Shown piece after piece: positions 1-55,697 of a stretch of DNA of 64,000 bases. A program made the translations under genes and the position numbers. The notes beneath the pieces are model-generated. The model saw nothing but the letters and a program-made list of their open reading frames with translations. It was not told the origin of the DNA and did not search any database. The first letter of the stretch is position 1, and the number at the start of each line of letters is the position of its first letter. This stretch comes from Streptomyces rimosus (GTDB taxonomy: Bacteria; Actinomycetota; Actinomycetes; Streptomycetales; Streptomycetaceae), in NCBI RefSeq assembly GCF_008704655.1, contig NZ_CP023688.1:434001-498000 (forward strand), written 5' to 3'.

Positions 1-3000
1 CGCCAACCACGCCTGGATCACACCCAGCGCCTCGGCCGCCACAGCGTGAACGGACTCCACCGTCCCCGCGGCCCCGGCCGTCGGCACCATCAGCACCGCA
101 CCCGGTACACCGCCCGCCGCCAAGGACTCCAGGTCCGCGTACTGCTCGAACGACGAGTCCGCGAGGGAACCGAGCACCGCGACGGTCTCCCCGGCCCCGG
201 CCGAGGGAAGCCGTACGGGGTTCCACTGGAGCCGGAACAGCGCGTCGCGGCCCACCGTGTTGGTGCCGCTCTCCCACTGGTCCGCGGAGACCGCCCGCAC
301 GACGAGCGCGCCGATGGAGGCGACGGGCCCGCCCGCGGTGTCGGCGACGTCCACGGAGACCGTGTCGGCGTCGTGCCGGGTGATCCGCACCCGTACCGCC
401 GCGGCGCCGGAGGCGTGCAGCGAGACGCCCTCCCAGGAGAAGGGCACGACCTGCCCGTGCGTTCCGTCGACGTTGACGATGTGCAGGGCCGCGTCGAACA
501 GCGCCGGGTGCAGGCCGTAACCGGGCGCGTCGCCCTCGGCCTCCTCGGGCAGGGCGACCTCGGCGAAGACCTCGTCGCCCCGGCGCCACGCGGCGCGCAG
601 GCCCTGGAAGTGCGGGCCGTAGTCGAATCCGCGGGCGGCCAGGCCCGGGTAGAGGCCGGTCAGGTCGACGGGCTCGGCGTCGGCGGGCGGCCAGGACGCG
701 GCGAAGTCGATGTCGGTCGCGGGCGGCTGCGGGCCGGTGGAGAGTGTACCGGTGGCGTGCTGCACCCACGGGTGGTCGCCGTCGCCCTCCGCCCTGGAGC
801 GCGCGCTGAACGTGCGGCGGCCCGTCTCGTCGGCGGGGCCCACGCGCAGTTGGAGGTGCACGCCGCCGTGTTCGGGCAGGACGAGCGGGGTGGCCAGGGT
901 CAGTTCGTCCACGCGGTCGCAGCCCGCCTCGTCGGCGGCGCGGATCGCGAGTTCGACGAATGCCGTGCCCGGCAGCAGCACCGCGCCCATGACGGCGTGT
1001 CCGGCCAGCCAGGGGTGGGAGGCGAGCGACAGGCGCGTGGTGAACAGCAGGCCGTCGCCGTCGGGCAGTTCCAGGGCGGCGCTGAGCAGGGGGTGTCCGG
1101 CCGCCGCGAGACCGGCGGCGCCGAGGTCCCCGGTACGGGCCGGGTCGGGGGTCGGCCAGAACCGCTGGTGCTGGAAGGCGTACGTCGGCAGGTCGACGGC
1201 GTGCGCGTCCCGGCCGGAGAGGAACGCGGACCAGTCGATGCCGGCGCCGTGTACGTGCAGTTCCGTCAGCGCCGCCAGGAGCGTCGTCTCCTCGGCGCGG
1301 TCCTTGCGCAGGACGGGGACGAGAACGGCCTCCTCGGAAGTGCTGCCGTCGGCGGCGCCGTCCGGCAGCGACTCGCGTGCCATCGCCGACAGCGTGCCGT
1401 CGGGCCCCAGCTCCAGGAAGCGCGTCACGCCCTGCGCGCGCAGGGCGCGGACGCCGTCGGCGAACCGTACCGCCGCGCGGACGTGGGTCACCCAGTATTC
1501 GGGGGTGCGCAGCTGGTCGGGGGTGGCGAGTTCGCCGGTGACGTTCGATACGACGGCCAGTTCCGGTTCGCCGTAGGAAAGGCCCTCGGCGACGGCCCGG
1601 AATTCCTCCAGCATCGGGTCCATGAGCGGCGAGTGGAAGGCGTGCGAGACCCGGAGGCGGGTGGTTTTGCGGCCCTCCTCCTCGAAGTGCCGCGCGATCG
1701 CGAGTACGGCTTCCTCGGCGCCCGAGATCACAACCGACGACGGGCCGTTGATCGCCGCGATCGACACCTCTTGCGTCAGCTGCGGAAGGACCTCCTCCTC
1801 CGTGGCGCGGATCGCCACCATCGCCCCGCCGGCGGGCAGCGCCTGCATGAGACGGCCGCGGGCCGCCACCAGCGCACAGGCGTCGGGCAGCGAGAACACC
1901 CCGGCGACATGCGCGGCGGCGATCTCGCCGACGGAGTGCCCGGCCACGTACTGCGGCCGTACGCCCCAGGTCTCCACGAGCCGGAAGAGGGCCACCTCGA
2001 TGGCGAACAGCGCGGCCTGCGCGTAGGCCGTCTGGTTCAGCAGCTCGGCGTCCTCGCCCCAGACGACCTCTCGCAAGGGGCGGTCCAGGTGCTCGTCCAG
2101 GGCGGCGCACACGGCGTCGAACGTCTCCGTGAAGGCCGGGTAGCGGTCGTACAACTCCCGTCCCATGCCCAGGCGTTGTGAGCCCTGGCCCGAGAAGAGG
2201 ACGGCGTCCGGGCCGGTCCGGGCGGTGCCGGTGGCCACGGCGGGGTCGGGCTCGCCCGCGGCCAGTGCGGCCAGGGCGCGCAGTGCGGCGCCGTGGTCGT
2301 CGGCGCGGACGGCCGCGCGGTGGGGGAAGGCCGTGCGGTGCGTCATCAGCGTGCACGCGGTGTCCGTGAGCCGGGGCGCGGGCTCGCGGCCGAGGTGGGC
2401 GTGCAGGCGGGCCGCCTGGGCGCGCAGGGCGCTCTCGGTCTTGGCGGAGAGCAGCAGCGGTGCCGGCCCGTCGGGAGCGGTGCCGGGCGCTTCGGATTCC
2501 GTGGCCGAGGGCAGCTCCAGGACCACGTGCGCGTTGGTGCCGCTGATGCCGAACGCGGAGACGGCGCTGCGCCGGGGGCGGCCGGTCTCGGGCCAGTCGG
2601 TGTTCTCGGCGAGCAGTTCGACGGCGCCCGCGGTCCAGTCGACGTGCCCGGTGGGCTCGTCGAGGTGGAGGGTGCGCGGCAGTACGCCGTGCCGCATCGC
2701 CAGGACCATCTTCATCACGCCCGCCACACCGGCGGCGGCCTGGGTGTGTCCGAGGTTGGACTTCACCGCGCCCAGCAGCAGCGGCTGCTCGGCCGGCCGG
2801 CCCTGGCCGTAGGTGGCGAGGAGCGCCTGGGCCTCGATCGGGTCGCCGAGCGTGGTGCCGGTGCCGTGCGCCTCCACGGCGTCGACCTCGGAGGCGTCCA
2901 GCTGGGCGTTGGCCAGAGCCTGGCGGATGACCCGCTGCTGGGACGGGCCGCTGGGGGCGCTCAGGCCGTTGGACGCGCCGTCCTGGTTGACGGCGGAGCC

Positions 3001-3793
3001 GCGGACCACGGCCAGCACCTGGTGGCCGTTGCGGCGGGCGTCGCTGAGCCGTTCCACGAGCAGCAGGCCGACGCCCTCGCTCCAGCCGGTGCCGTCGGCG
3101 GCGGCCGCGAACGGCTTGCAGCGGCCGTCGGGGGACAGTCCCCGCTGCCGGGCGAACTCCACGAAGGAGGACGGGGTGGACATCACCGTCACACCGCCCG
3201 CGACCGCGAGGGAGCACTCGCCCTGGCGCAGCGCCTGGGCCGCCATGTGGAGGGCCACCAGCGAGGAGGAGCACGCGGTGTCCACCGTGACGGCCGGTCC
3301 TTCGAAGCCGAAGGTGTAGGAGACGCGGCCGGAGACGACGCTCATCGCGTTACCGGTGATCCGGTGGCCGCCGGAGTCGTCCTGGGCCGCGTCCAGGACC
3401 GTGCCGTAGTCCTGGGTGTTGGTGCCGGCGAAGACGCCGGTGCTGCTGCCGCGCAGCGTCTCCGGGTCGATACCGGCCTGTTCCAGGACTTCCCAGGTGG
3501 TTTCCAGGAGCAGCCGCTGCTGGGGGTCCATGGTGAGGGCCTCGCGCGGCGAGATGCCGAAGAAGTCCGCGTCGAAGCCGGCCACGCCGTCCAGGAAGCC
3601 GCCGTCGCGGGTGTAGCTGGTGCCCTGGTGGTCGGGGTCGGGGTGGTAGATCCGGTCCAGGTCCCAGCCCCGGTCGGCGGGCATCCGGGTGATGGCGTCG
3701 CCGCCCTCGGCGAGCAGGCGCCACAGGGCCTCGGGCGAGTCCACCCCGCCGGGGAAGCGGCAGGCCATGCCGACGATCGCCACCGGTTCGTCG
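1..3793 (-). other. PKS module 2 (partial): KS-AT(malonyl)-DH-...
   Basis: The KS has TACSSSL. The AT has GHSVGE and HAFH (about 1632-1643), so malonyl-CoA is expected. The DH shows the HxxxGxxxxP motif (HAVMGAVLLP, about 970-1000) and the second-motif Asp (LFDAALH), so it should be active. The sequence ends in the structural part that precedes the KR, so the KR itself is not visible. A DH-KR module here would install the first conjugated double bond (C24=C25 in rimocidin numbering). Confidence 0.82.
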
Positions 3794-8484: not shown

Positions 8485-8570
8485 CAGGACGCCAATCTTT
8501 CGGTGGGATGCCGGCCCGGGGACCCGACACGCACGTTTGACCGTTGCCCCGCCATCTTCGCCGCGGTGGA

Positions 8571-8586
8571 CTGCGGGTTTCCCTAG
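8571..8586 (-). promoter_or_regulatory. Probable PAS-LuxR (PimM-like) operator upstream of the modules 1-4 PKS
   Basis: On the minus strand the site reads CTAGGGAAACCCGCAG. The published operator consensus for PimM-type PAS-LuxR regulators is CTVGGGAWWTCCCBAG. By eye 14 of 16 positions agree; the departures are the tenth base (C for T) and the thirteenth (G for C). It lies about 87 bp before the ATG at 8484 and on the promoter side of the hairpin at 8602-8639. A PAS-LuxR gene is present in the same cluster at 56067-56810. Binding is inferred. Confidence 0.6.
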
Positions 8587-8601
8587 ATGCGTGCGCGGAT
8601 A

Positions 8602-8639
8602 CGCCCCGGCGGGCGGCCGGATGGCCGCCCGCCGGGGCG
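8602..8639 (-). terminator. Perfect 17-bp hairpin after the TE-containing PKS gene
   Basis: Positions 8602-8618 and 8623-8639 are exact reverse complements with a 4-nt loop (GGAT on the plus strand). The hairpin starts 18 nt past the stop codon at 8658-8660. There is no T-run, as is common for strong actinomycete terminators. It separates the 55.7-8.7 kb PKS transcript from the next PKS gene. Confidence 0.75.
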
Positions 8640-8657
8640 CTGGTCACCGCTGTCGGG

Positions 8658-9370
8658 TCATGCCTGGCCGAGGGTGGCCAGCCAGTCCTTGACGATCTGC
8701 GCGGTCTGCGGGGCGTGGTCGCGGACCATGGAGAAGTGGTCCGCGTCGACGATGCGGACATCGGCCGACGGGAGCATGTCGCTCTTCGTGTCGTCGGGCG
8801 AGACGGCCGCGGTGCCCTCCATGGCGAAGGTCTCCTGGGCGGCGCGGACGATCAGCACGGGAGCGCTGGTGTGCTGGACGTCGAGCTGCCCGAGCAGGCC
8901 CATGTACCGCCCCATCCCGGACAGCCGGGAGTTGGTCACCCGCACCGGGGATTCCTGGTCGGCGAGGAAGTTGCGGTGCATCAGGTTGTCGTAGTCGATG
9001 TCCTCCCGGTCGTCGTGCCGGATGCTGACGGTGTCCAGCAGCACCACGGCCTCGGGCTTGATGCCCCAGGTGCTCTCCAGCAGCCCGGCGGCCACGTAGG
9101 CGTACGCACCGCCGGAGGAGTGTCCGACCAGGATGAAGGGGTTGCCGTCGCTTGCGCGCAGAGCGCTCTCCGCGATGGTCCTGACCGCGCTGGTGGGTGT
9201 GGCGGGCAGCCGTTCCCCGGCGGCGAAGCCGACCAGCGGCAGTGCGCTGACGTGCCGTTCGCCCCGGAAGGACGCGGCGAACCTGGCGTATTCGTGGACA
9301 CCGCCGTTGGCGGTGGGTGTGCTGATGCAGATCAGCCGCGGCTCGGCGGGGCCCTCGGCGAGCGTGGTCG
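8658..9370 (-). other. Thioesterase domain (macrolactone release)
   Basis: This alpha/beta-hydrolase domain follows the last ACP. The nucleophile elbow is GHSSGG, with the serine codon at 9117-9119. A VVLLDTV strand and DADHFSMV near the C terminus supply the likely Asp and His. As in other macrolide PKS, it should transfer the finished chain from the ACP and close the ring through the C27 oxygen. Confidence 0.92.
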
Positions 9371-12300
9371 GCAGCGGCAGCTCCACCAGTTCGGCCGTGT
9401 TCTCGAAGGTCGTGCGCAGGCCGGTCAGGGCCCGCAGCATGAGCCGGATCTCCGGGAACCTGCCCTCGTCCATCGCGTCGAGGAACATCCGCTCCAGCGA
9501 GTCGGGGTCGGGCCCGGCCAGCAGGAGGCCGCCCTCGCCGCCGCCCAGGCCGGGCTGTGCGGCGAACTCGCTGCGCAGCCGGGCGCCGAGGGCGTCGGGG
9601 GTCTTGTTGTCGAAGACCAGGGTCGCCGGGAGCTGGAGCCCGGTGACGGTGGCGAGCCGGTTGCGCAGCTCGATCGAGGTCAGCGAGTCGATGCCCAGCT
9701 CGTAGAAGTCCCGGCCGGCCTCGATCTCCTCGGCGGAGACATGGCCGAGGATGGTGGCGGCCTCGGTACGGACCAGGTCGACGAGGTGGCGTACGCGCTC
9801 CCCCTCCGGCAGCGCCAGCAGCTGCTGGGCGAAGGTGTCCGGGGAGGCGGACGTGCTCGCGGCGTTGACGGCGGTCCGCCTGCTGTGCCGCACCAGCCCC
9901 CTGAAGAGCGGCGGGATCTGTCCTTCCGGCACACGGGCGCCGGGGATCAGGCCCACCGCCATCACGACGGGCTCGGCGTAGCCGCGCGCGATGTCGAACA
10001 GTTCCATGCCCTCCTCGATGGAGACCGGCGCCATGCCGTTGAGGCGCATGCGCTGCACGGTGGCCTGGTTCATCGCGTCGGCCATGCCGCCGCCGTCCCA
10101 GTGGCCCCACACCAGTGACTGGCCCGGCAGGCCCAGGGCGGCGCGGTGCCGGATCAGGCCGTCGAGGAAGGCGTTCGCGGAGGCGTAGTTGGCCACGCCG
10201 GGGGCGCCCAGCACACCGGAGACGGAGGAGAACATGATGAACGCGGACAGGCCGAGGTCCTTGGTGGCCTCGTGCAGGTGCCAGGCGGCGTCCACCTTCG
10301 GCCGCAGCACCGGCGTCAGGCGCTCCGGGGTCAGCGCGGTGACCACGCCGTCGTCGAGGACGCCGGCGAGGTGGACGACCGCGGTCAGCGGGTGCTCCTC
10401 GGGGATGGCGGCCAGCAGGCCGGCGAGCGCGGCGGGGTCCGCCGTGTCGCAGGCCGCGATCGTGGGCTGCGCGCCCAGGGCCCGCAGCTCTTCGGCCAGT
10501 TCGTCCGCCCCGCGGGCCGCCGGGCCACTGCGGCTGACCAGCAGCAGGTGCCGGGTGCCGGTCGTGGCCAGGTACCGGGCGAGCTCGATGCCCAGACCGC
10601 CGGTGCCGCCGGTGATCAGTACGGTCCCCTCGGGGTCCCACTGCGCCGGCCGGGTGCCGGCGTCGGCGGGCAGCCAGGCCAGCCGCCCCATGAGCACCGC
10701 GCCGTCGCGGACGACGAACTGGGTCTCACCGGTGGGCAGCAGACCCGGCAGGGCGTCGAGGAGCGTGGCGAGGTCGCCGCCGTTCTCGTCCGGGTCCTCG
10801 ACGTCGGCCAGCACGAAACGGCCGGGGTGTTCCGCGATCGTCGAGCGCAGCAGGCCCCACAGGGCGGAGCCGGCCAGGTCGCCGCCGTCGACGGCGCCGG
10901 AGGTCAGGAACACCATCTGGGACGTGGTGAAGCGCTCGTCGGCGATCCACTGCTGTACCAGGAGCAGGGCCTGGGTCGTCAGCTCGTGCACGGCCTCCGG
11001 GTAGCCGTCCGCCGTACGGGGCACGGGGACCACGACCAGGTCGGGGGTGTCCGTGAGGCCGGCGAGGGACGTGGTGCCCAGGGGCGCCAGGACGGTGCTC
11101 CGGGCGCTCGGCGCGTCCTCCGTGCGCGGTGCGGGGATCCACTCCAGGCGGAGCAGTTTCTGGCTCTGGCCGCTGGAGGTGCGCTCGGGGGCTTCGGCCA
11201 GCGCGCGCAGTGTGACGGTGCGGGCCGACAGGACGGGTTCCCCGGCGGCGTCGACCGCGGTGACGGTGACGGTGTCCTCGCCGGTCTTCGTGATCCGTGC
11301 CCGCAGCGCCGCGGCACCCGAGGCGTGCAGCGACACGTCGTTCCAGGAGGCGCCGTAGGAGATGTGCTCCCTGTCACCCACGCCGCTGAAGGAGGTGCCG
11401 TGCAGGACCGCTTCGAGCAGTGCCGGGTGCAGGCCGAAGGACGGGGCGTCGGAGGCGGCGTCGTCCTGGAGTTCGGCTTCGACGAAGGTCTCGTCGTCGC
11501 GGACCCAGACCGCCCGCAGCCCCTGGAGGGCGGGTCCGAATTCGGTGCCCTCGTAGTACTCGTCCACGTCCATCTCGGTCGCGTCGCTGGGCGGCCAGCC
11601 GGACACGTCGAGGGTGTCGGTGTGCCGGTCGGCGGCGAGGATGCCCGTGGCGTGCCGGACCCAGGGCTCGTCCAGCGCGGCCTGGGGCCGCGTGAAGAAC
11701 CGGATCTGCCGGGTGCCGTCGTCGTCGGGGGCGCCGACCCACACCTGGAGCACCAGGGCCGCGCCGTCGGTGAGCCCCAGCGGCGTGTCGAGGGTCAGTT
11801 CGGCGATCCGGTCGCAGTCGAAGCGGTCCCCGGCGCTCAGGGCCAGCTCGACGAAGCCGGCGGCCGGGAAGACGGCCGTGCCGCCCGCCACGTGGTCCTT
11901 GAGCCAGGGGTGGGTTTCCAGCGACAGCCGGCTGGTGAACAGCGTGCCGCCGCCGTCCGCCAGCGGTACCGCCGCGCCGAGCAGCGGGTGTTCGGTGGGC
12001 AGCAGGCCGGCGGAGGTCACATCGCCCGCCAGGGCCCTGCGCTTGGGCCAGTACCGCTGGCGCTGGAAGGGGTAGGTGGGCAGGTCGACGCGGCGGGCGC
12101 CGGTGCCGTCGAAGACGCGGGCCCAGTCCGCGTCGACCCCGGCGACGTGCAGCTGCGCCAGGGTGGTGAGCAGGGCCGTCTCTTCGGGGTGGTCCTTGCG
12201 CAGGGCGCTGACGGTGACGGCGGTGCCATCCAGGTTGTGCGGGACCATGCCCGTCAGTGCCCCGTCGAGGCCCAGCTCCAGGAAGGCCGAGACGTCCTCG

Positions 12301-15300
12301 TCGGCCAGGGTGCGGATCGCGTCGGCGAAGCGGACGGGCTCACGCACGTTGCGGACCCAGTAGTCGGCGGAGCGCATCAGCTCCTCCGGGGCCCGCCCGC
12401 CGGTCACGGTGGAGACGAGCGGGATGCGCGGCTCCTGGTAGGACAGGCCCTCGGCGACCTGGCGGAACTCGTCCAGGATCGGGTCCATCAGCGGGCAGTG
12501 GCCGGCGACCTGCACCGCCACCTGCCGCGTCTTGCGGCCCTCGGCGGCGAACGCGTCGGTGATGCGCTGGGTGGCGGGCCCGTCGCCGGCGATGACGACG
12601 GACTCCGGTCCGTTGACCGCCGCGATCGAGACGCCGTCGACCAGCCGCGCGGCCACTTCCTGCTCGCTCGCCTGGACCGCCACCATGATGGCGCCGCGGC
12701 CCTCCAGGGTGCCCATCAGCCGCCCGCGGGCGGCCACCAGGGTGCAGGCGTCCTTGAGGGAGAGGACCCCGGCGACGTGCGCGGCGGCGATTTCGCCGAA
12801 CGAGTGCCCGCCGACGAAGTCGGGCCGTACGCCCCAGGATTCGACGAGCCGGAACAGTGCCACCTGGATGGCGAACATGGCCGGCTGGGTGAACTCGGTG
12901 CAGTCCAGCCGCTCGGCGTCGCTGCGCATCACCTCGCGCAGTTCGTCGTCGAAGTGTGCCAGTACCGCGTCCAGGGCCTCGGCGAACACCGGGAACCGGT
13001 CGTACAGCTCGCGGCCCATGCCGATGCGCTGTCCGCCCTGGCCCGGGAAGAGCATGGCCAGCGAGCGGTCCTCGGCGGTGCCGCGCGCCACCTCGGCACC
13101 GTCCAGCAGCACCGCGCGGTGCGCGAACAGCGGCCGCCCGGTGGCCAGCGAGAAGCCCACGTCGGCCGGCGCGAGTTCCGGCCGCTCGGCGACCCACTCC
13201 CGAAGCTGTCCGATCCCGTCGTCCAGCGCCTGGGCGGACTTGCCCGAGACGAGCCACGGGACGGCTCCCGGCTGGGCGGGCCGGGTGTCCTCGGCCGGCC
13301 GCCCGGCGTCCGCCGGTGCCTGTTCGAGGATGGCGTGGGCGTTGGTGCCGCTCATGCCGAAGGAGGAGACGGCGCCGCGGCGCGGGCGGCCGGTGTCCGG
13401 CCAGTCGGTCCGCTCGGTGAGGAGCCGGACGTCTCCCGCCGTCCAGTCGACGTGGGAGGAGGGCGTGTCGATGTGCAGGGAGCGCGGCAGGACGCCGTGC
13501 CGCAGCGCCAGGACCATCTTGATGACGCCGGAGACACCGGCCGCCGCCATGGTGTGGCCGATGTTCGACTTCAGCGAGCCGAGGAGCAGCGGCTGCCCCT
13601 CGGGCCGGTCCTGGCCGTAGGTGGCGAGCAGCGCCTGGGCCTCGATCGGGTCACCGAGCGAGGTGCCGGTGCCGTGTGCCTCGACCGCGTCCACCTCGTC
13701 GGCGGACAGCCCGGCGTTGGCCAGGGCCTGGCCGATGACGCGCTGCTGGGAGGGGCCGTTGGGGGCGGTCAGGCCGTTGGACGCGCCGTCCTGGTTGACG
13801 GCCGAACCGCGGACGACGGCGAGGATCTCGTGGCCGTTGCGGCGGGCGTCGGACTGCCGTTCCAGTACGAGGACGCCGACGCCCTCGGCCCAGCTCGTGC
13901 CGTCGGCGTCGTCGGAGAACGCCTTGCACCGGCCGTCCGTCGCCAGCGCGCCCTGCCGGCTGAATCCGGCGATGCTCATCGGCGTGGACAGCAGCGTCAC
14001 ACCGCCGGCCAGCGCGAGCGAGCACTCGCCGTTGCGCAGCGCATGGGCCGCCAGATGGAGGGAGACGAGCGAGGAGGAGCACGCGGTGTCGACGGTGACG
14101 GCCGGGCCCTCCAGGCCGAAGGTGTAGGACAGCCGCCCGGACAGGACGCTGCCCGCGAGGCCGGTGCTGGCGTGGGCCTCCACGTCCTCGCCGGAGTTCA
14201 TCAGGATGCTGGCGTAGTCGGAGCCGCTGGTGCCGACGAAGACGCCGGTCTCGGTGCCGCGCAGGGACACCGGGTCGATGCCGGCCCGTTCGACGGCCTC
14301 CCAGGAGGTTTCCAGCATCAGCCGCTGCTGCGGGTCCATGGCCATGGCCTCGCGCGGGGAGATGCCGAAGAAGGGGGCGTCGAAGTCGCCGAGGCCGTCC
14401 AGGAAGCCGCCCTTGGACGCGGAGCTGCGGCCCTGGTCGCCCTCGGCCCCGCCGAGCAGGGTCTCCAGGTCCCAGCCCCGGTCGGTCGGGAAGGCGGAGA
14501 TGCCGTCGCGCTCGTCGGTGACGAGCCGCCACAGGTCCTCCGGGGACCGCACGCCGCCGGGCAGCCGGCAGGCCATGCCGACGATGACGACCGGGTCGTC
14601 GGCGGACGCCGTGGTGACCGCGGTGGCGGCGCGCGCCTCGCCCCGCTCGTCGAGCAGGACGGCGATGAGGTGGTCGGCGAGGACGACGGGGTTGGGATAG
14701 TCGAAGACGAGGGTGGCGGGCAGCCGCAGGCCGGTGGCCGTGGAGAGCCGGTTGCGCAGTTCGACGGCGGTCAGCGAGTCGAAGCCCAGGTCGTTGAAGT
14801 CCCGGCGGGTGTCGATGGCCTTGGCCGAGGCGTGCCCGAGCACGGCGGCGGCCTCGGTGCGTACGAGGTCGACCGTGAAGGCGGTCCGCTCGTCCCTGGC
14901 CAGCTCCGTCAGCCGCCGGGTGAGCCGCGCCGCCGCGGCGGCGCCGCCCGCGGAGCCCGCTGCCGTACGGCGAGCGCCCTTGACCAGGCCGCGAAGCACA
15001 GGCGGTACGGCGCCGCGGCCCCGGGCGTTGGCGGCGACGGGTCCGATGGGCACGAGGTGCGCCGCGTCGGTCGCGGTGGCGGCGTCGAACAGCGCCACGC
15101 CCCGCTCGGCCGGCAGCGGGGGCACGTCCAGCGACGCGATCCGCTCCGGGGCGGACGGCGCGCTTGGCGTCCCGTCCGGCGTCGCCCAGGCGCCCCACGC
15201 GAGGGACTGGGCGGGCAGGCCCTGGGCCGTACGGTGCCGGGCCAGCGCGTCGAGGAAGACGTTGGCCGCGGCGTAGTCGCCGTGCCCGCCGCTGCCGAGG

Positions 15301-18300
15301 ACGCCCGAGACGGACGAGTACATGACGAACGCGGCGAGATCAAGGTCCTTGGTGGCCTCGTGCAGGTGCCAGGCCGCGTCCGCCTTCGGACGCAGCACGG
15401 CCGACAGCCGCTCCGGCGTCAGCGAGGTCACCTCGGCGCCGTCGTGGACGCCGGCGGTGTGGATCACGGCGGTCAGCGGGTGCGCGGCGGGCACCGCGCC
15501 GACGGCGGCGGCCACCGCCTCGCGGTCGGCCAGGTCGCCGTCGAGGAAGGTCACCTCGGCGCCGTGCGCGATCAGTTCCGCTTCCAGCTCGCTCGCTCCG
15601 GGCGTGTCCGGGCCGCTGTGGCCGCCCAGCAGCAGGTGCCGTACGCCCCGCTCGGCCACCAGGTGCCGGGCCAGCTCGCCGCCCAGTTCGCCCGTGCCGT
15701 CGGTGATCAGCACGGTGCCGTCCGGGTTCCAGGCGCGGGGCAGCGTCAGCACGATCTTCCCGACGTGCTGCGCGCGGCTCATGTACCGGAACGCCTCGGG
15801 GGCGCGCCGCACGTCCCACGTCGTCACCGGCAGCGGGCGGATCTTCTCGGCGGCGAACAGCTCCAGCAGTTCGCCGAGCATGTCCCGGGTGCGCTCCGGG
15901 CCCGCTTCCGCGAGGTCGAAGGCCTGGTAGCGCACTCCGGCGGCGGTTTCGGGGTCGCGGAGGTCCGTCTGCCCCATCTCCAGGAAGTGGCCGCCGGGGG
16001 CGGTCTGCCGCAGGGAGGCGTCGATGAATTCGCCGGTGAGGGCGTTGAGGACGACGTCCACGCCGCGGCCTTCGGTGACCGCGCGGAACCGCTCCTCGAA
16101 GTCGGTCGAACGGGAGGAGGCGATGTGGTCGTCCGCGACACCCAGTTCGCGCAGCGTGTCCCACTTGCCCTCACTGGCCGTGGCGAACACCTCGGCACCG
16201 AAGTGCCGGGCCAGCTGGATCGCCGCCATCCCCACGCCACCGGCTCCGGCGTGCACGAGGATCGACTGACCGGGCCGCAGACCGGCAAGGTCCTTCAAGG
16301 CGTAGTACGCGGTCAGGAAGACCATCGGCACGGAGGCGGCCTCGGGGGCCGTCCAGCCCTCGGGAATCCGGGCCAGCAGGTGCTCGTCGGCGACGGCTTC
16401 CGGGCCGAAACCGCCGAAGACCAGGCCCGTCACGCGGTCGCCGATCCGCAGGCCCCGTACGCCGGGGCCGGTCTCGGTCACCACACCGGCGGCCTCGGCG
16501 CCCAGCAGCCCGGCCTCGCCCGGGTACATGTCCAGGGCGGCCAGTACGTCGCGGAAGTTGACGCCGGCGGCCTCGACCCGGAGGCGCACCCGGCCCTCGG
16601 TCAGCGGTTCCCGCACCTCCGGGCAGGGGGTGAGGGCCAGGCTGTCCAGGCTGCCCTTGGCCGCGCTGTCCAGCCGCCACGGCGTCCGGACGGGCGGGAG
16701 CAGACCGGCGTTGCTGCCGAGCGGTGCCAGCCGTGCCACGCGAACGGCGCCGTCGCGGACCACGAACTGGGCGTCGTCGGTGGCCAGCAGGCCCGGGAGC
16801 GCTGCGAACACTCCGCTCGGGTCGGTGTCTTCGAGGTCCAGGAGGACGAAACGTCCGGGGTTCTCCGTCTGCGCCGAGCGCACCAGGCCCCACACCGCGG
16901 CCGCGGCCACGTCCCGTACGGCCTCGCCCTCGTCGGCGGAGACGGCGCCGCGCGTGACGAACACCAGACGGGTGGCGTCGGCCCCCTCACGGCCGGCCCA
17001 GTCCTGGAGCAGGCCCAGAACCCGGGTGGTGAGCTGGTGCGTCGCGGCGGGCACGTCATCGCCCGTACCGCCGGACACGGGGACGACCACGAAGTCCTCG
17101 TCGCCGGCGAGGTCCGCCAGGGAGGCGACGGACGCGCCCATTCCGAGTTCGTCGGTGCCCAGGGACACACACCGGACCTCGGTGGAAGCCACCTCGGGCG
17201 CCGCCACCCAGTCCAGCGACAGCAGCCCGTCGTACTCCACGCCCGGCCGCGCCGTCAACGCTCGTCCTGCTGCATCGAGTTGACTGCTCAGGACGAGCGC
17301 CTCGGCGGACAGGACGGGTGCGCCCTCGGTGTCGACGGCGGCGATGGACACCGAGTCGTCACCGGTCTTCGTCACCCGGGCCCGGAGCACCGAGGCTCCC
17401 CCGGCGTGCAGCGACACACCGTGCCAGGCGGACGGCAGGAGGAGTTCGCCGCCATCGCCGACCCCGGCCATCCGGTGGGACTGGAGCACGGCGTCCAGCA
17501 GTGCGGGGTGGAGCCCGAACGACGCGGCCTCCTCGGCTACCTGGCCGGGCAGCGCCGCCTCGACGAAGATCTCGTCACCGCGCCGCCACACCGAGCGCAG
17601 CCCCTGGAAGGCCGGGCCGTAACCGGTCCCCTCGTGGAAGCCCTCCAGGTCCACGACCACGGCGCCCTCCGGCGGCCAGACCTCGGAGCCGATGCCCCCG
17701 ATCCGTTCGCCGCTGGTCAGGGTGCCCTGGGCGTGCTGCGTCCACGGCTCGTCGGCGGCGCCCTCGGCCCGCGAGTACACCGAGACCGTACGGGCGCCCG
17801 CCTCGTCGGGGGCACCGACCAGCACCTGGACCTGTGCGGCGCCCTCCTCGGTGAGCTCCAGCGGGGCGAGCAGGGCGAACTCCTCGATCCGGTCGCAGCC
17901 GGCCTGGTCACCGGCGCGCAGGGCCAGTTCAAGGAAGCCGGTGGCCGGGAAGAGGACGCGGCCGCCCAGGACGTGGTCGGTCAGCCACGGGTACGTCTGC
18001 GACGACAGCCGGCCGGTGAACAGCACCTCGCCGGAGTCGGCGAGGGTGAGGGTCACGCCCAGCAGCGGGTGCTCCGCCGGGAGGAGTCCAGCTCCGGTCA
18101 CGTCTCCGGAGAGCGCGGCGGGGCGGGGCCAGTACCGCTCGCGCTGGAAGGGGTAGGTGGGCAGCTCCACTCGGCGGGCGCCGGTGCCGGCGAACCACGC
18201 CGCCCAGTCCACCGGGACGCCCGTGACGTGCAGCCGCGCCAGCGCGGTCAGCAGCGCCGACTCCTCGGGCCGGTCCTTGCGCAGGGCGCTGACGAAGACC

Positions 18301-20834
18301 GCGGCCTCGTCCGCGCCGTGCTGGGCCATCGCCGTCAGCACCCCGTCCGGGCCCAGCTCCAGGAAGACGGACGCCCCTTCGGCCTCCAGGGCGCGGACGC
18401 CGTCCGCGAAGCGCACCGTTTCCCGTACGTGCCGGACCCAGTACTCGGGCGAGCACACCAGCTCGTCGTCGGCGAGGTCCCCGGTCACGTTGGAGACGAG
18501 CGGAATCTGCGGGGCCTTGTACGACAGCCCCTCGGCCACCTGCCGGAAGTCGTCCAGCATCGGGTCCATCAGCGGCGAGTGGAAGGCGTGGCTCACCGGC
18601 AGGCGCCGGGTCTTGCGGCCTTCGGCCGCCAGCTCACCGGCGATCCGCAGAACCTGGGCCTCCTCCCCCGCGATCACCACTGCCTGCGGCCCGTTGACCG
18701 CCGCGATCGACACCCCGTCGGCCGGCCGCCCGGCCACCTCGTCCTCGGTGGCCTGCACGGCCACCATCGCGCCGCCCGCGGGAAGGGCCTGCATCAGCCG
18801 CGCCCGCGCCGCGACGAGCGCACACGCGTCCTCCAGCGACAGCACCCCGGCGACATGCGCGGCGGCGATCTCACCGATCGAGTGGCCGGCCACGAAGTCC
18901 GCGCGGATGCCCAGGGACTCGGTCAGCCGGAACAGGGCCACCTCGATGGCGAACAGCGCGGGCTGGGTGAACCCGGTCTCGTCCAGGCCCTCCGCCTCGC
19001 CGAAGATCACGTCCCGCAGTTCGCCGTCGAATTGCGCCAGCACCTCGTCCAGCGCCTCGGCGAACACCGGGTACCGGCCGTAAAGTTCGCGGCCCATCCC
19101 GGCGCGCTGCGCGCCCTGGCCGGAGAACAGCACCGCGACGTTTCCGGTCGTGTCCTCGGCGAAGCCCTGTGCCACCTCGACGGTTTCGCCGCCCTCGGCC
19201 AGCAGGACCGCGCGGTGTTCCAGGTGCGCGCGGGTGGTCGCCAGGGAGAATCCCAGGTCGACGGGCGACAGGCCGGTCAGCGCGGTGATCTGCTCGCGCT
19301 GTGCCGCGAGGGCTTCCTCGGACCTGGCGGAGACCAGCCACGGCACGGCCGCCGGAACGACCGTCGCGGGCTCCGGAGCGGCCTGCGCAGCGGCCTTCGG
19401 CTCGCTCCCGTCCTGCTCTCCGGTGCCCTCGTCGGACTCCTCACCGGTCTCTTCGGCAGCAGCCGGTGCCTGCTCGAGGATGACGTGGGCGTTGGTGCCG
19501 CTGATGCCGAACGACGACACACCCGCCCGCCACGGCCGGTCGGCCTCGGGCCACTGCCGGGACTCCGTCAGCAGCTCGACCGCGCCGGACGTCCAGTCCA
19601 CGTGCGACGACGGCACCTCGGCGTACAGCGTCTTCGGCAGGACGCCGTGCCGCAGCGCCAGCACCATCTTGATGAGCCCCGCCGCACCGGCCGCCGCCTG
19701 GGTGTGGCCGAGGTTGGACTTCACCGAGCCGAGCAGCAGCGGCCGCTCCGGGTCGCGGTCCTGGCCGTACGCGGCCAGCAGCGCCTGCGCCTCGATCGGG
19801 TCGCCCAGGGTCGTGCCGGTGCCGTGGGCCTCGACGGCGTCCACGTCCGAGGGGGTGAGACCGGCGCTCGCCAGTGCCTGCTGGATCACCCGCTGCTGGG
19901 AGGGGCCGTTGGGCGCCATCAGGCCGTTGGAGGCGCCGTCCTGGTTGACGGCCGAGCCGCGGACGACGGCGAGGATCTCGTGGCCGTTGCGGCGGGCGTC
20001 GGACAGGCGCTCGACCACGACGATGCCCACGCCCTCGGACCACCCGGTGCCGTCGGCGTCGTCGGAGAACGCCTTGCACCGGCCGTCACCGGCCAGCCCG
20101 CCCTGCCGGGTGAAGCCGGCGAAGCTCATCGGCGACGACATCACCGTCACACCGCCGGCCAGCGCCAGCGTGCACTCGCCGTTGCGCAGCGCGTGGGCCG
20201 CCAGGTGGAGGGAGACGAGCGAGGAGGAGCACGCGGTGTCGACGGTGAGGGCCGGGCCCTCCAGGCCGAAGCTGTAGGCGAGCCGGCCGGACAGGATGCT
20301 GCCCGCGAGGCCGGTGCTGCCGTGGCCCTCGATGTCCTCGCGGGAGTTCAGCACCGCGTTGATGTAGTCGACGCCGCTGGTGCCGACGAAGACACCGGTC
20401 CGGCTGCCCTTCAGGGACACCGGGTCGATGCCGGCCCGCTCGAACGCCTCCCAGGAGGTCTCCAGCAGGAGCCGCTGCTGCGGGTCCATCGCCACGGCCT
20501 CACGGGGCGAGATGCCGAAGAAGCCCGCGTCGAACGAGGCGGCGTCCACGAAGCCGCCTTCGGCGGTGGCGCTGCTGCCGCTTCCGTCACCGCTGAGAAT
20601 GTCGAGGTTCCAGCCACGGTCCGTGGGGAAGGCCGCGATGCCGTCGCGGCCCTCGTCCAGCATCCGCCAGAGCTCTTCCGGCGACCGGACTCCCCCGGGC
20701 AGCCGGCAGGCCATGCCGACGATGGCGATCGGCTCCTGCTTGGCGGACTCAGCCTCCCGAAGCCGTTGGCGGGTCTGGTGCAAGTCGTTCGTGACCCACT
20801 TGAGGTAGTCAACGAGCTTGTTGTCGTTCGGCAT
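8658..20834 (-). CDS. Type I modular PKS, two modules (12 and 13) with C-terminal thioesterase
   Basis: The protein has 4058 aa. The ATG at 20834 has a good ribosome site (GGAAGG, 8 nt upstream) and lies 35 bp after the stop of the preceding PKS gene, so the two are probably co-transcribed. An N-terminal docking helix ([13 protein letters not shown]...) is followed by KS 34-455, AT 564-862, DH 919-1192, ER 1385-1699, KR 1701-1882, ACP 1982-2059, then KS 2080-2506, AT 2591-2889, DH 2949-3212, KR 3397-3586, ACP 3682-3759 and TE about 3822-4058. The TE shows this is the last enzyme of the line; it should release and cyclise the macrolactone. Although the domain set is rich, several domains look dead (KR of the first module, DH of the second), which changes the predicted product. 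In nystatin and pimaricin the TE protein has one module, so the two-module arrangement is distinctive. Confidence 0.95.
9400..14598 (-). other. PKS module 13: KS-AT(atypical)-DH(inactive)-KR(B type)-ACP
   Basis: The AT has GHSFGE (about 12792-12811) and VAGH (12498-12509) where malonyl domains have HAFH and methylmalonyl domains YASH. The surrounding sequence ([11 protein letters not shown]) is still malonyl-like. A larger extender such as ethylmalonyl is inferred, matching the C2 ethyl of rimocidin. The DH keeps HxxxGxxxxP ([10 protein letters not shown]), but its second motif reads LLEAVLH, with Glu (11412-11414) for the catalytic Asp, so it is probably dead. There is no ER. The KR is complete (GGTGGLG, LDD, Tyr in ANYASANAF) and B type, giving the C3 hydroxyl. 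The ACP serine is in GIDSLTS. Confidence 0.82.
16141..16229. repeat. 89-nt exact repeat in the module 12 ER (copy A)
   Basis: The sequence is identical to 22614-22702 in the ER of module 11. It encodes part of the ER cofactor region. Exact nucleotide identity, beyond protein similarity, points to recent duplication or gene conversion. Confidence 0.95.
18725..18884. repeat. 160-nt exact repeat in the module 12 AT (copy A)
   Basis: The sequence is identical to 25204-25363 in the AT of module 11, covering the region around GHSIGE. Both copies are in the same orientation, 6479 bp apart. Confidence 0.95.
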
Positions 20835-20869
20835 GACTGGAACCTTCCGTGTATGTGCGGGGGCCGGAT

Positions 20870-23800
20870 TCAGCGAGCGCTGTGCCGGCCGAGCTCGTTG
20901 TCGATGAAGGCGAAGATTTCGTCGGTGCTGGCGGCCTCGAGCCGCTCGGCGACCTGCTCGCCGTCCTCCTCCGCCGGGGCCCCGCGCCAGGCGTCCAGGA
21001 GCTGCGCCAGGCGCCCGGCGACGGCGGCCCTGGTACGGGCGTCGGGCTCGCCGGCGGCGAGTGCGGCGTCGAGCCGGTCGATCTCGGCGAGGAGGTCGGG
21101 ACCCGTTTCGGACTCGTCCACGAGCTGCGGGACGAGGTGACCGGCGAGTGCGGCGGGGTTGGGGTAGTCGAAGACGAGGGTGGCGCTCAGCCGCAGGCCG
21201 GTGGCGGTGGAGAGCCGGTTGCGCAGCTCGACCGAGGTCAGCGAGTCGAAGCCCAGCTCGTTGAACTCCCGCCGGGTGTCGATGGCCTTGGCCGAGGCGT
21301 GTCCGAGCACGGCGGCGGCCTCGGTGCGTACGAGGTCGGTCAGGATGCGCAGGCGCTCCTCCGGACGTGCCTCGCGCAGCCGTTGGGTGAGCGTCGCGGC
21401 CGCTTCGGCGCCGCCCGCGGAGCCCGCCGCCGTACGGCGGGCGCCCTTGACCAGGTTCCGCAGGACCGGAGGTACGGCGCCCCGGTCCCGGGCGCCGGTG
21501 GTGACCGGTCCGATGGGCACGAGGTGTGCGGCGTCGGCCGTGGTGGCGGTGTCGAACAGGGTCAGTCCCTGCTCGATGGTCAGGGGCGTGGCTCCGGAGG
21601 CGGCGATCCGCTGGACGTCGGCGTCCGAGAGGGTGGCGGTCATGCCGCCGCTCGGGGCCCAGGCGCCCCAGGCCAGGGAGTGGGCGGGCAGGCCCTGGGC
21701 CGTACGGTGCCGGGCCAGCGCGTCGAGGAAGACGTTGCCCGCGGCGTAGTTGCCCTGGCCCGCGCCGCCGAGGATGCCCGAGACGGACGAGTACATGACG
21801 AAATCGGCGAGGTCGAGGTCCTTGGTGGCCTCGTGCAGATGCCAGGCCGCGTCCACCTTCGGACGCAGTACGGCGGACAGCCGCTCGGGCGTCAGCGACG
21901 CCACCACACCGTCGTCCAGGACGCCGGCGGTGTGGATCACGGCGGTCAGCGGGTGCGCGGCGGGCACCGAGGCCACGATCCCCGCGGCCGCTTCCCGGCC
22001 GGCCACATCGCCCGCGACGATGGTCACCTCGGCGCCCTGCGCGGCCAGTTCCGCCCGCAGCTCCTCGGCGCCGGGCGCGTCCGGGCCGCTGCGGCTGGCC
22101 AGCAGCAGGTGCCGTACGCCCCGCTCGGCCACCAGGTGCCGGGCCAGCTCACCGCCCAGGCCGCCCGTACCGCCGGTGATCAGCACGGTGCCGTCCGGGT
22201 TCCAGGCACGGGGCAGCGTCAGCACGATCTTCCCGATGTGCTGCGCCCGGCTCATGTACCGGAACGCCTCCGGTGCGCGCCGCACGTCCCAGGTCGCCAC
22301 CGGCAGCGGGCGGATCGTGCCCGCCCCGAACAGCTCCAGTAGTTCGGTCAGCATCCCCTGTACGCGGTCGGGGCCCGCGTCGGCGAGGTCGAACGCCTTG
22401 TAGTGGACCGGGGCGGCGGTTTCGGGGTCGCGGATGTCCGTCTTGCCCATCTCCAGGAAGTGGCCGCCGGGGGCGGTCAGCCGCAGGGAGGCGTCGACGA
22501 ACTCACCCGCCAGGGCGTTGAGGACCACGTCCACGCCGCAGCCATCGGTGACCGCCCGGAACCGCTCCTCGAAGTCCGTGGTCCGGGAGGAGGCGATGTG
22601 GTCGTCCGCGACGCCCAGTTCGCGCAGCGTGTCCCACTTGCCCTCACTGGCCGTGGCGAACACCTCGGCACCGAAGTGCCGGGCCAGCTGGATCGCCGCC
22701 ATACCGACACCGCCGGCTCCGGCGTGCACCAGGATCGACTGCCCGGGACGCAGACCGGCGAGGTCCTTCAGGGCGTAGAGCGCGGTCAGGAAGACCAGCG
22801 GCACCGACGCCGCCTGCTCGGGTGCCCAGCCCTCGGGAATACGGGTCAGCAGCCGCTGGTCGGTCACGCCCACCGGCCCGTAACCGCCGAAGACCATGCC
22901 CATGACGCGGTCTCCCGGGCGCAGTCCGTGCACGCCGGGCCCGGTTCCGGTCACCACACCGGCGGCCTCGGCGCCCAGCAGTCCGGCCTCGCCCGGGTAC
23001 ATTCCCAGGGCGTTCAGTACGTCGCGGAAGTTGACGCCGGCGGCCTGGACCTGGATGCGGACCTGGCCCTCGGTGAGCGTGTCGAGGATCTCCGGGCACG
23101 GCGCGAGGACCAGGTTGTCCAGGCTGCCCTTGGCCGCGCTGTCCAGCCGCCACGGCACGTCGGCGGGCGGCAGCAGGCCCGCGCTGCCGCTGAGAGAGGC
23201 CAGCCGTGCGACCCGGACGGCGCCGTCGCGGACCACGAACTGGGCGTCGTCGGTGGCCAGCAGGCCCGGGAGTTCCGCGAGTGCGTCCTTCGGGTCGCAG
23301 CCGTCTTCGAGGTCCAGGAGCGCGATCCGCCCGGGGTTCTCCGTCTGCGCCGAGCGCACCAGACCCCACACCGCGGCCGCGGCCACATCCCGTACGGTCT
23401 CGCCCTCGTCGGCGGAGACGGCACCGCGCGTGACGAACACCAGACGCGTGGCAGCGGACTCCTCCCGGCCGAGCCAGTCCTGAAGCACGCCCAGGGCCCG
23501 GGCCGTCACCTCGTGCGTCGCGGCGGGTACGTCATCGCCCGTACCGCCGGACACGGGGACGACCACAAGGTCCTCGTCCCCCGTCAGGTCCGCCAAGGAG
23601 GCGACCGACGCGCCCACTCCGAATGCATCGTCGCCCAGGGACACGCACCGGACCTCGGTGGAACCCACCTCGGGCGCCGCCACCCAGTCCAGCGACAGGA
23701 GCGTTCCCTGCTCCGTGCCGCGCTGTCCCGCCGACCGGCCGGTACCGGGGTCCTGGTAGGCCCGTATCACCATCGCCTCGGCGGAGAGGACGGGTGCGCC

Positions 23801-26800
23801 CTCGACGTCGACGGCCGCGATGGACACCGAGTCGTCTCCGGTCTTCGCGACCCGGGCCCGCAGTACGGAGGCTCCCCCGGCGTGCAGAGAGACGCCCCGC
23901 CAGGCGAACGGCAGGGCGTCCTCGTGCTCGCTGCCGACCCCGGCCATCCGGTGCGACTGCAGCACCGCGTCCAGGAGCGCCGGATGGAGCCCGAAGGAAC
24001 CGGCGTCCTCGGCCACCTGCGCCGGGAGTGCCACCTCCACGTAGGCGCCGCCCTCGTACTGCCACACCGAGCGCAGGCCCTGGAAGGCCGGGCCGTACCC
24101 GGTCCCCTCGTAGAAGCCGTCCAGGTCGACGGCCACCGCGTCCTGCGGGGGCCAGGTACGGACACCGAAGTCAGCGATGCGCTCGCCGCTGGTCAGGGTT
24201 CCCTCGGCGTGCTGGGTCCACGGCTCGTCGGCGGCGGCACCGCCGGGGCGCGAGTGCACCGAGACCGTACGGGCGCCCGTCTCGTCGGGGGCACCTGCCA
24301 CCACCTGGACCTGTGCGGCGCCCTCCGCCGTGAGGACCAGAGGAGTCAGCAGCAGGAATTCCTCGACCCGGTCGCAGCCGATCTGGTCACCGGCGCGCAT
24401 CGCCAGCTCCAGGAAGCCGGTGGCCGGGAAGAGGACGCTGCCGCCCATCTTGTGGTCGGTCAGCCACGGGTACGCCTGCAACGACAGCCGGCCGGTGAAC
24501 ACGACCTGGCCCGAGTCCGCGACGGTCAGTGTCGCGCCCAGCAGCGGGTGCTCCGCGGGCTGGAGGCCCGCTCCGGTCACGTCTCCGGAGAGCGCGGCGG
24601 GCTGCGGCCAGTACCGCTGGTGCTGGAAGGGGTAGGTGGGCAGGTCGACGCGGCGGGCGCCGGTGCCGTCGAAGACGCCGGACCAGTCGATGCCGACCCC
24701 GGTGACGTGCAGCCGTGCCAGCGCGGTGAGCAGGGCGGTCTCTTCGGGGCGGTCCTTGCGGAGGGCGGGGACGGTCACGGCCGTCTCGTCCAGGGTGTGC
24801 TGGGCCATGGCCGTCAGCACGCCGTCCGGGCCCAGCTCCAGGAAGACCGAGGCGCCTTCGTCGGCCAGCGCGCGCACGCCGTCGCCGAAGCGCACCGTCT
24901 CGCGTACGTGCCGGACCCAGTATTCGGGCGAGCACACCAGCTCTTCGTCGGCCACCTCGCCGGTCACGTTCGAGACGATCGGGATCTGCGGGGCCGCGTA
25001 CGACAGTTCCCCGGCCACCTGCCGGAAGTCGTCCAGCATCGGGTCCATCAGCGGCGAGTGGAAGGCGTGGCTCACCGGCAGGCGGCGGGTCTTGCGGCCC
25101 TGGCCGGTGAACTCCTCGGCGATCCGGAGCACCTCGGCTTCCTGCCCGGCGATCACCACGGCTTCCGGGCCGTTGACGGCGGCGATCGACACCCCGTCGA
25201 CCAGCCGCCCGGCCACCTCGTCCTCGGTGGCCTGCACGGCCACCATCGCGCCGCCCGCGGGAAGGGCCTGCATCAGCCGCGCCCGCGCCGCGACGAGCGC
25301 ACACGCGTCCTCCAGCGACAGCACCCCGGCGACATGCGCGGCGGCGATCTCACCGATCGAGTGCCCTGCCACGTGGTCCGGACGGACACCCCAGGACTCC
25401 ACCAGCCGGAACAGCGCCACCTCGATGGCGAACAGCGCGGGCTGGGTGAACCCGGTCTCGTCCAGGCCCTCCGCGTCACCGAAGATCACGTCCCGCAGCC
25501 CGGCGTCGAAGTGCTTCAGCACGGCGTCCAGCGCCTCGGCGAACACGGCGAACCGGCCGTACAGTTCCCGGCCCATCCCGGCGCGCTGCGCGCCCTGGCC
25601 GGAGAACAGCACCGCGAGCGAGCGGCCCGTCTCCGCGCGGCCCCGGGCCGCCTCGGACAGTTCGCCGTCGGGGCACCGCGCCAGCAGCACCGCGCGGTGC
25701 TCGAAGACCGAACGGCCGTTGGCGAGCGAGAAACCGACGTCCGCCGGGGACGACGCGCCCCGCAGCGACAAGATCCGCTCGATCTGCGCCGCCAGGGCCT
25801 CCTCGGACCTGGCCGACACCGGCCAGGGCACCACGGCGGGCGCCACCTCGGATTCGGGTGCCGGTTCGTCGGCCGGTGCCGCCTGTTCCACGATCACATG
25901 GGCGTTGGTGCCGCTGATGCCGAACGACGAGACGCCCGCCCGCCACGGCCGGTCGGCCGCCGGCCACTCCCGCGGCCCGGTGGCCAGGAGTTCCACCGCG
26001 CCGGACGCCCAGTCCACGTGCGACGACGGCGTATCCACGTGCAAGGTCTGCGGCAGTACGCCGTGCCGCATCGCCAGGACCATCTTGATGATCCCGGCGA
26101 CTCCGGCCGCGGCCTGGGTGTGGCCGAGGTTGGACTTCACCGAGCCGAGCAGCAACGGGCGCTCGGGGTCGCGGTCCTGGCCGTAGGTGGCCAGCAGCGC
26201 CTGTGCCTCGATCGGGTCGCCGAGCGGGGTGCCCGTGCCGTGGGCCTCGACCACGTCCACGTCCGCGGCCGACAGGCCCGCGCTCGCCAGGGCCTGGCGG
26301 ATCACCCGCTGCTGGGACGGGCCGCTGGGCGCCGTGAAGCCGTTGGAGGCGCCGTCCTGGTTGACGGCCGAGCCCCGGACGACGGCGAGCACGGGGTGCC
26401 CGTTGCGGCGGGCGTCGCTCAGCCGCTCGACGAGGAGCATGCCGACGCCCTCCGACCAGCCGGTGCCGTCGGCGGCCTCGGAGAACGCCTTGCACCGGCC
26501 GTCCGCCGCGAGGCCGCCCTGCCGGCTGAACTCCATCAGGGAGCCGGGGGACGACATCACGTTCACGCCGCCGACCAGGGCGAGCGAGCACTCACCGGCC
26601 CGCAGGGCGTGGGCCGCCGAGTGCAGGGCCACCAGCGAGGAGGAGCAGGCCGTGTCGACCGTCACCGCCGGGCCTTCGAGGCCCAGCGTGTAGGACAGCC
26701 GCCCGGAAGTGGCGCTGGCGGCGATCCCGGTGCCGATGTCGCCGGTGGCGTCGGACAGGGAGCGCACCAGCAGGTAGGCGTAGTCCTGGCCGTTGGTGCC

Positions 26801-27265
26801 GACGAACACGCCGGTGCGGCTGCCGCGCAGGGACACCGGGTCGATGCCGGCCCGCTCGATCGCCTCCCAGGAGGTCTCCAGCAGGAGCCGCTGCTGCGGG
26901 TCCATGGTCAGCGACTCGCGCGGCGAGATCCCGAAGAAGTCCGCGTCGAAGTCGGCCACGCCGTCGAGGAAGCCGCCTTCCTGGCTGACGGCGTTGCCGC
27001 GCTGGTCGACACCGGCGTCCCGCAGGGCGTCGAGGTCCCAGCCGCGGTCCGTGGGGAACGCGCCGATCGCGTCCTTGCCGGAGGCCAGCAGCTCCCACAG
27101 GTCCTCGGGCGAGTTGACGCCGCCGGGGTAGCGGCAGCTCATCGCCACGATCGCGAGCGGTTCGGTGGCCGCGGCGACGAGGGTGCGGTTCTGCCGGCGC
27201 AAGTGCTCGGCTTCCTTCAGCGACGCGCGGAGGGCCGCGACGATCTGCTCACTGGAGGTGGTCAT
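20870..27265 (-). CDS. Type I PKS, single fully reducing module (module 11)
   Basis: The protein has 2131 aa. I chose the ATG at 27265 because AGAGGG lies about 6 nt upstream and the resulting N terminus ([18 protein letters not shown]...) is a typical docking helix. In-frame ATGs at 27295 and 27304 would overlap the previous gene. The gap to that gene's stop is only 10 bp, so translation may be coupled. Order: docking, KS 35-459, AT 547-844 (GHSIGE, HAFH: malonyl), DH 903-1172 ([17 protein letters not shown]), ER 1369-1682 ([11 protein letters not shown]), KR 1688-1869 ([11 protein letters not shown], Tyr), ACP 1966-2049 (GFDSLTS), and a C-terminal docking region ending [11 protein letters not shown]. 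All reductive motifs are intact, so the module should leave a methylene (C7 in rimocidin numbering). Its neighbours supply the preceding and following modules. Confidence 0.95.
22614..22702. repeat. 89-nt exact repeat in the module 11 ER (copy B)
   Basis: The sequence is identical to 16141-16229 in the ER of module 12. Confidence 0.95.
25204..25363. repeat. 160-nt exact repeat in the module 11 AT (copy B)
   Basis: The sequence is identical to 18725-18884 in the AT of module 12. Confidence 0.95.
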
Positions 27266-27275
27266 GGTCCCTCTT

Positions 27276-55697
<28,422 letters not shown>

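Follow-up and report, generated by a model that had tools for sequence, protein, structure and literature searches.

A Streptomyces rimosus PKS line read as the known rimocidin/CE-108 assembly line

The PKS line encoded in the analysed part of the Streptomyces rimosus genome is, with a probability of about 0.97, the known rimocidin/CE-108 assembly line. The window, which is the whole stretch of DNA that was analysed (64,000 nucleotides; positions 434,001 to 498,000 of contig NZ_CP023688.1, assembly GCF_008704655.1), falls inside the published BGC 6 of S. rimosus ATCC 10970 as given in PMC9045324. The cluster, its product and its engineering are already in print, and an earlier note on this DNA, made from the sequence alone, was correct in identifying a 28-membered tetraene of the rimocidin/CE-108 type, which is supported by the module count, the predicted formulae and the published products of BGC 6. 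The fresh points are small and concern only the evolutionary source of the module 13 AT and a partly intact module 12. As the literature search was narrow, a malonyl-type origin of this AT may already have been reported elsewhere. The locus, a known antifungal pathway in an oxytetracycline strain, illustrates how a polyene product can be deduced from sequence alone, including a correct prediction on unseen modules.

Module order and the tetraene

Four large PKS frames, all on the minus strand, hold the following modules in the order described here, as judged from open reading frames, Pfam domains and residue-level alignments.

1..8484, minus, continuing to window position -11870: first extension PKS, modules 1-4, 6784 aa (open reading frame, Pfam, alignments)
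about 1-3795, minus: module 2 KS-AT-DH, with its KR and modules 3-4 outside the window
about 3796-8391, minus: module 1 KR, within the modules 1-4 PKS
8658..14603, minus: module 13, with AT (GHSFG/VAGH), DH with HPALLE, KR and ACP (Pfam, alignments)
about 8661-9422, minus: TE, at the end of module 13
14604..20834, minus: module 12 with docking domain, DH and ER motifs intact, KR cofactor site altered (Pfam, alignments)
20870..27304, minus: module 11 PKS, DH-ER-KR (Pfam, alignments)
27276..55697, minus: six-module PKS, modules 5-10, with ATG at 55697 (Pfam, alignments)
27279-32075, minus: module 10 KR, within the six-module PKS
32076-36548, minus: module 9 dead KR, within the six-module PKS
36549-41165, minus: module 8 KR, within the six-module PKS
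41166-45749, minus: module 7 methylmalonyl KR, within the six-module PKS
45750-50357, minus: module 6 KR, within the six-module PKS
about 50358-55640, minus: module 5 DH-KR, within the six-module PKS

Modules 12 and 13 and the thioesterase form one protein (8658-20834, minus strand). The alignments bear out the module order and motif calls of the earlier note for module 1, the DH of module 2 and modules 5-11, and the start proposed for the six-module protein, position 55697, is an ATG immediately ahead of the docking domain. By Pfam, the line has 13 extension KS domains, 13 KR stretches and one terminal thioesterase, with DH in modules 2, 3, 4, 5, 11, 12 and 13 and ER-type domains in modules 11 and 12. 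The Pfam input for the modules 1-4 protein consisted of two pieces that omit about 300 residues (the end of the module 2 KR and its ACP); the full module 2 KR is covered by the residue-level KR alignment, with its nucleotide-binding motif at window position -294 and its Tyr at -711. The DH-KR call for module 2 was right, although the KR lies outside the window and the call had therefore been partly inferred.

Extension of the sequence below position 1 located both modules 3-4 and the loading unit, which had been placed outside the window, and the count of DH-KR modules on this fetched sequence gave exactly three before module 5. Because exactly three DH-KR modules (2, 3 and 4) precede module 5, such that modules 2-5 are all DH-KR, the product is a tetraene; a shorter or longer polyene is excluded by the module count. 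The KR of module 9 is dead, as had been proposed, with the Tyr changed to Glu and the Asn to Gly in the alignment. KR type is read by the LDD motif, which is present in modules 1-5, 10, 11 and 13, reads VDD in module 8 and is missing from modules 6 and 7.

All 13 extension KS domains contain the Cys residue. The AT motif is HAFH in modules 1-6 and 8-12 (11 ATs), YASH in module 7, VAGH with GHSFG in module 13 and VAAH with GHSAG in the loading AT. We take YASH of module 7 to denote methylmalonyl and VAGH of module 13 to denote ethylmalonyl, and these motif-based assignments of the likely extenders fit the product. HAFH is reported as a malonyl motif and GAAH as that of the acyl-CoA-selecting eurocidin loading AT (PMC12843615). 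The loading protein frame lies outside the window (genome 409420-414861) and contains AMP-binding, ACP, KS, AT and ACP domains by Pfam. Its organization as CoA ligase-ACP-KS(Ser)-AT-ACP, with two PP-binding stretches and the KS motif VDTASSSS, is that described for RimA (PMC4540446), and the rimocidin loading AT is reported to activate butyryl-CoA (PMC12843615). As a marker for rimocidin, the loading AT motif is unspecific: in 12 of 45 loci, those in which a motif script found a KS-Ser module, it reads VAAH (5), TAPH (2) or HAFH (3) or is unreadable (2).

Both the arrangement of modules 5-10 and the mycosamine tailoring genes are the same in eurocidin and pimaricin/nystatin-type clusters, which depart from this line in the length of the chromophore, the ring end and the final extender unit. 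Pimaricin is made with 12 extension modules. A 26-membered tetraene of the pimaricin/tetramycin type would be accompanied by similar tailoring genes, and nystatin A1 is the nearest known cluster for BGC 6 in antiSMASH (72%; PMC9045324). However, the 13 extension modules found here, rather than 12, exclude a pimaricin-type 26-membered ring, and both a CCR gene and the VAGH terminal AT are present; the probability of this alternative is negligible.

Products and the published cluster

Taken as a whole, the line predicts products with the formulae of rimocidin and CE-108, in agreement with the earlier claim that each position fits rimocidin. When C14 carboxylation, mycosamine and non-reducing modules 9 and 12 are included in the calculation, a butyryl start gives C39H61NO14 (767.409), the formula of rimocidin, an acetyl start gives C37H57NO14 (739.378), the formula of CE-108, and a propionyl start gives C38H59NO14. 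The congeners reported at 725 Da (CE-108D, 14 below CE-108) and 753 Da (two further compounds, 14 below rimocidin; PMC4540446) fit the calculated formulae.

In the pathway proposed here, domain order and residues are those observed, the products of the strain are taken from print and the enzyme roles are those of the published rim pathway. RimA would select a butyryl or acetyl starter and module 1 would provide the C27 oxygen. The four conjugated double bonds would then come from modules 2-5. Modules 6-8 would set the hydroxyls at C17, C15 and C13, with the C14 methyl supplied by module 7, and module 9 would leave a ketone at C11 from which the hemiketal forms. A hydroxyl at C9 is predicted from module 10, a CH2 at C7 from module 11 and the C5 ketone from module 12, with a KR that probably is unable to bind cofactor. 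Module 13 would add ethylmalonate, the source of the C2 ethyl, with reduction at C3, and the TE would close the 28-membered lactone. The P450 RimG and the ferredoxin RimH would convert the C14 methyl to the carboxyl, and RimE would attach mycosamine made by the GDP-mannose dehydratase and RimF.

The genome coordinates match those of ATCC 10970: 34 of the 38 strongest KS matches overlap its published cluster intervals (32 wholly and 2 across an end), the other four falling outside the intervals in Table 4 of PMC9045324. That table lists the 46 chromosomal clusters used for comparison, which cover 12.8% of the genome, and none of 10,000 random rotations of the KS matches reached 34 (mean of 4.9). 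Of the 34 overlapping matches, 14 lie in BGC 6 and 2 in the oxytetracycline cluster; for all KS matches, the overlap is 35 of 46. The genome analysed here is a single contig of 9,361,154 bp, which falls 4,745 bp short of the published ATCC 10970 chromosome (9,365,899 bp), itself called the largest of three assemblies of this strain.

Compared by published description, the locus and BGC 6 of ATCC 10970 have the same coordinates, gene content and module number, with no difference found (PMC9045324, PMC11097637), the ATCC 10970 rimocidin line being counted as 14 modules with the loading module (PMC11097637). The compounds detected for BGC 6 of this strain are rimocidin, CE-108 and its amide, amide CE-108 (PMC9045324). 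Five rimocidin congeners and an in-frame rimA deletion have also been described for ATCC 10970, and rimocidins are undetectable in its whole-cluster deletion strains (PMC11097637). Among 32 S. rimosus genomes, 28 were found to carry the rimocidin cluster (PMC6437091), and by published description its gene content in strain M527 (MK300953, PMC9942304) is like that found here. Streptomyces diastaticus var. 108 (AY442225), as described in PMC4540446, shares with this line the 13 extension modules, a RimA with KS-Ser and the CCR gene rimJ, and its methylmalonyl at module 7 and ethylmalonyl at module 13 are the extenders that the AT motifs suggest here.

Modules 12 and 13

The reductive loop of module 12 had been called dead, which holds for the altered KR cofactor site but not for the DH and ER motifs or the KR catalytic residues. 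The ER motif (HAGAGGVG) and the DH motif are intact, and the KR still has K, S, Y and N aligned with those of the other KRs. In contrast, the KR cofactor loop reads TDGTGELG versus TGGTGGLG, and after the second strand an H replaces the R found in all other KRs except that of the dead module 9. From these substitutions, we infer that module 12 probably yields the C5 ketone because its KR no longer binds cofactor. With the DH and ER motifs intact and the KR catalytic residues retained, the sequence by itself does not dictate a ketone at C5.

A thioesterase search matched 63 of the 392 genomes, counting the one analysed here; of the 62 others, the 12 highest-ranking apart from G338 and G316, which rank among them, supplied stretches for a reading of the terminal module. 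A readable terminal module is present in 11 of these 12 stretches (L058 is the one without), and its AT is VAGH in 2 and HAFH in 9 of the 11. Within this sample of thioesterase relatives, which may not all be mycosamine polyenes, the result is in line with the earlier statement that this end is not shared by other mycosamine polyenes. Of the two VAGH relatives, G048 (L055) is in all likelihood the sister strain S. rimosus WC-3904. Defects in the penultimate KR also occur in L055, where it is lost by a Tyr to His change, and in L059 (G303), in each case by changes other than those seen here. The other VAGH relative, G036 (L056, G036:C2:584800-602800), has intact KR, DH and ER motifs in its penultimate module, and in the preceding module no ER was found and the DH reads HPGLLE. 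Based on these motifs, G036 should make a different product, a C2-branched polyene with a reduced C5 and a C7 hydroxyl.

A rimocidin line that is leaky at module 12 would release 5-deoxo congeners as well. The intact DH and ER motifs and the retained K, S, Y and N of the KR speak for such a leak, but both the cofactor loop and the position of the R have changed, the penultimate KRs of L055 and L059 are also defective by other changes, as if the loss were kept, and no such congener is named in the parts of the literature examined; we consider the leak quite improbable. The calculated masses are 753.430 for 5-deoxo-rimocidin (C39H63NO13) and 753.394 for C38H59NO14, and if the leak were real, 5-deoxo-rimocidin would be masked by the 753 Da congeners already described.

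Module 13, which completes the rimocidin line, had been described as an atypical AT-KR-TE. The AT (GHSFG/VAGHC), KR and TE are all present, and the module also contains a DH domain that had been missed, in which HPALLD is changed to HPALLE. Identity of its AT runs from 70.7% with the malonyl AT of module 11 to a lowest value of 50.0% with the module 6 AT, and reaches 71.5% with HAFH ATs of relatives. Against the methylmalonyl AT of module 7 the value is 36.6%, and the listed identities of that methylmalonyl AT to other ATs are 34-39%. In an AT tree that is small, has weak deep supports and includes a single methylmalonyl AT, the module 13 AT clusters with two other VAGH ATs (support of 1.000). 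These comparisons suggest that the module 13 AT is a malonyl AT reprogrammed to ethylmalonyl. The loading AT pairs with the module 7 methylmalonyl AT on long branches of the tree (0.919), which by itself gives no support for a malonyl origin of the loading AT. A combined proposal, in which the module 13 AT arose from a malonyl AT (HAFH to VAGH and GHSIG to GHSFG) as a second AT reprogramming besides the published one of the butyryl-selecting loading AT, and in which module 12 may leak 5-deoxo-rimocidin, is unlikely when taken jointly.

The terminal AT also bears on whether the line could make a different 28-membered mycosamine polyene, for example a eurocidin-type pentaene, that shares the loading protein and the ring end. 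A close relationship between the loading ATs of eurocidin and rimocidin has been reported (PMC12843615), and L059 also combines a defective penultimate KR with an HPALLE DH. However, the line has only four consecutive DH-KR modules (2-5), which specify a tetraene and not the five double bonds of a pentaene, the terminal AT is VAGH here but HAFH in L059, and rimocidin is the compound detected for BGC 6 (PMC9045324); the probability of a eurocidin-type product is very low.

Neighbouring genes and relatives

Beyond the PKS frames, the window contains the following genes, with names taken from PMC9942304.

56067..56972, minus: PAS-LuxR regulator, RimR1-like (GerE over the cut-off, PAS_4 below the cut-off)
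57137..59893, minus: LAL (large LuxR) regulator, RimR2-like, 918 aa (2757 nt)
59883..62699, minus: LAL-type regulator, RimR3-like
62710..64000, running to 65613, minus: large frame, RimR4-like by position only (open reading frame)

Toward the low end, outside the window, are a tyrosine phosphatase, a GMC oxidase (cholesterol oxidase-like), a glycosyltransferase, a DegT aminotransferase and a P450, together with a ferredoxin-like frame, the loading PKS, an IS1182-family transposase and a crotonyl-CoA carboxylase/reductase (rimJ, L004:1180-2523; TIGR01751, 613 bits, over the cut-off). Toward the high end are LuxR/LAL regulators, a type II thioesterase and a GDP-mannose dehydratase. The tailoring genes rimC-rimH and the regulators rimR1-rimR4 are present, with RimR4 assigned by position and RimH by reading a short frame. 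Relative to the rim cluster legend of M527 (PMC9942304), the genes are the same except for the transposase, type II thioesterase and GDP-mannose dehydratase found here, and the RimR2-like gene equals M527 rimR2 in length (2757 nt). The acetyltransferase rimK named in that legend was not identified among the genes here.

A glycosyltransferase search returned 45 loci, of which the nearest is that of S. rimosus NRRL WC-3904 (L010, 94%). This locus has the same gene order around RimE, with rimJ adjoining rimA, and is 88-97% identical over nine queries (the module 4 and ferredoxin queries being pieces) and 80% identical in the TE. RimJ was seen in 1 of the 45 loci, a number that is set by flanks limited to 10 kb and is not a count of absence. 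In a RimE protein search, the top match is 99% identical, and no rim name appears among the shortened names of the matches listed (120 of 404).

The IS1182-family transposase (L004:2534-4374, genome about 407534-409374) is located outside the window, in the interval where rimA and rimJ converge with their 3′ ends. The element has 52-nt inverted ends that are 87% complementary, and neither rimA nor rimJ is broken. In contrast, WC-3904 (L010) has no transposase between rimA and rimJ and carries an uninterrupted hairpin-like sequence there. The outer parts of the repeats resemble the arms of a terminator hairpin, and the element seems to have inserted in the hairpin loop. Finally, another type I PKS is located outside the window at genome 330803-348107 (L007, L008); it has four KS matches and corresponds to BGC 5 of PMC9045324, for which the nearest known cluster is that of sceliphrolactam (32%).
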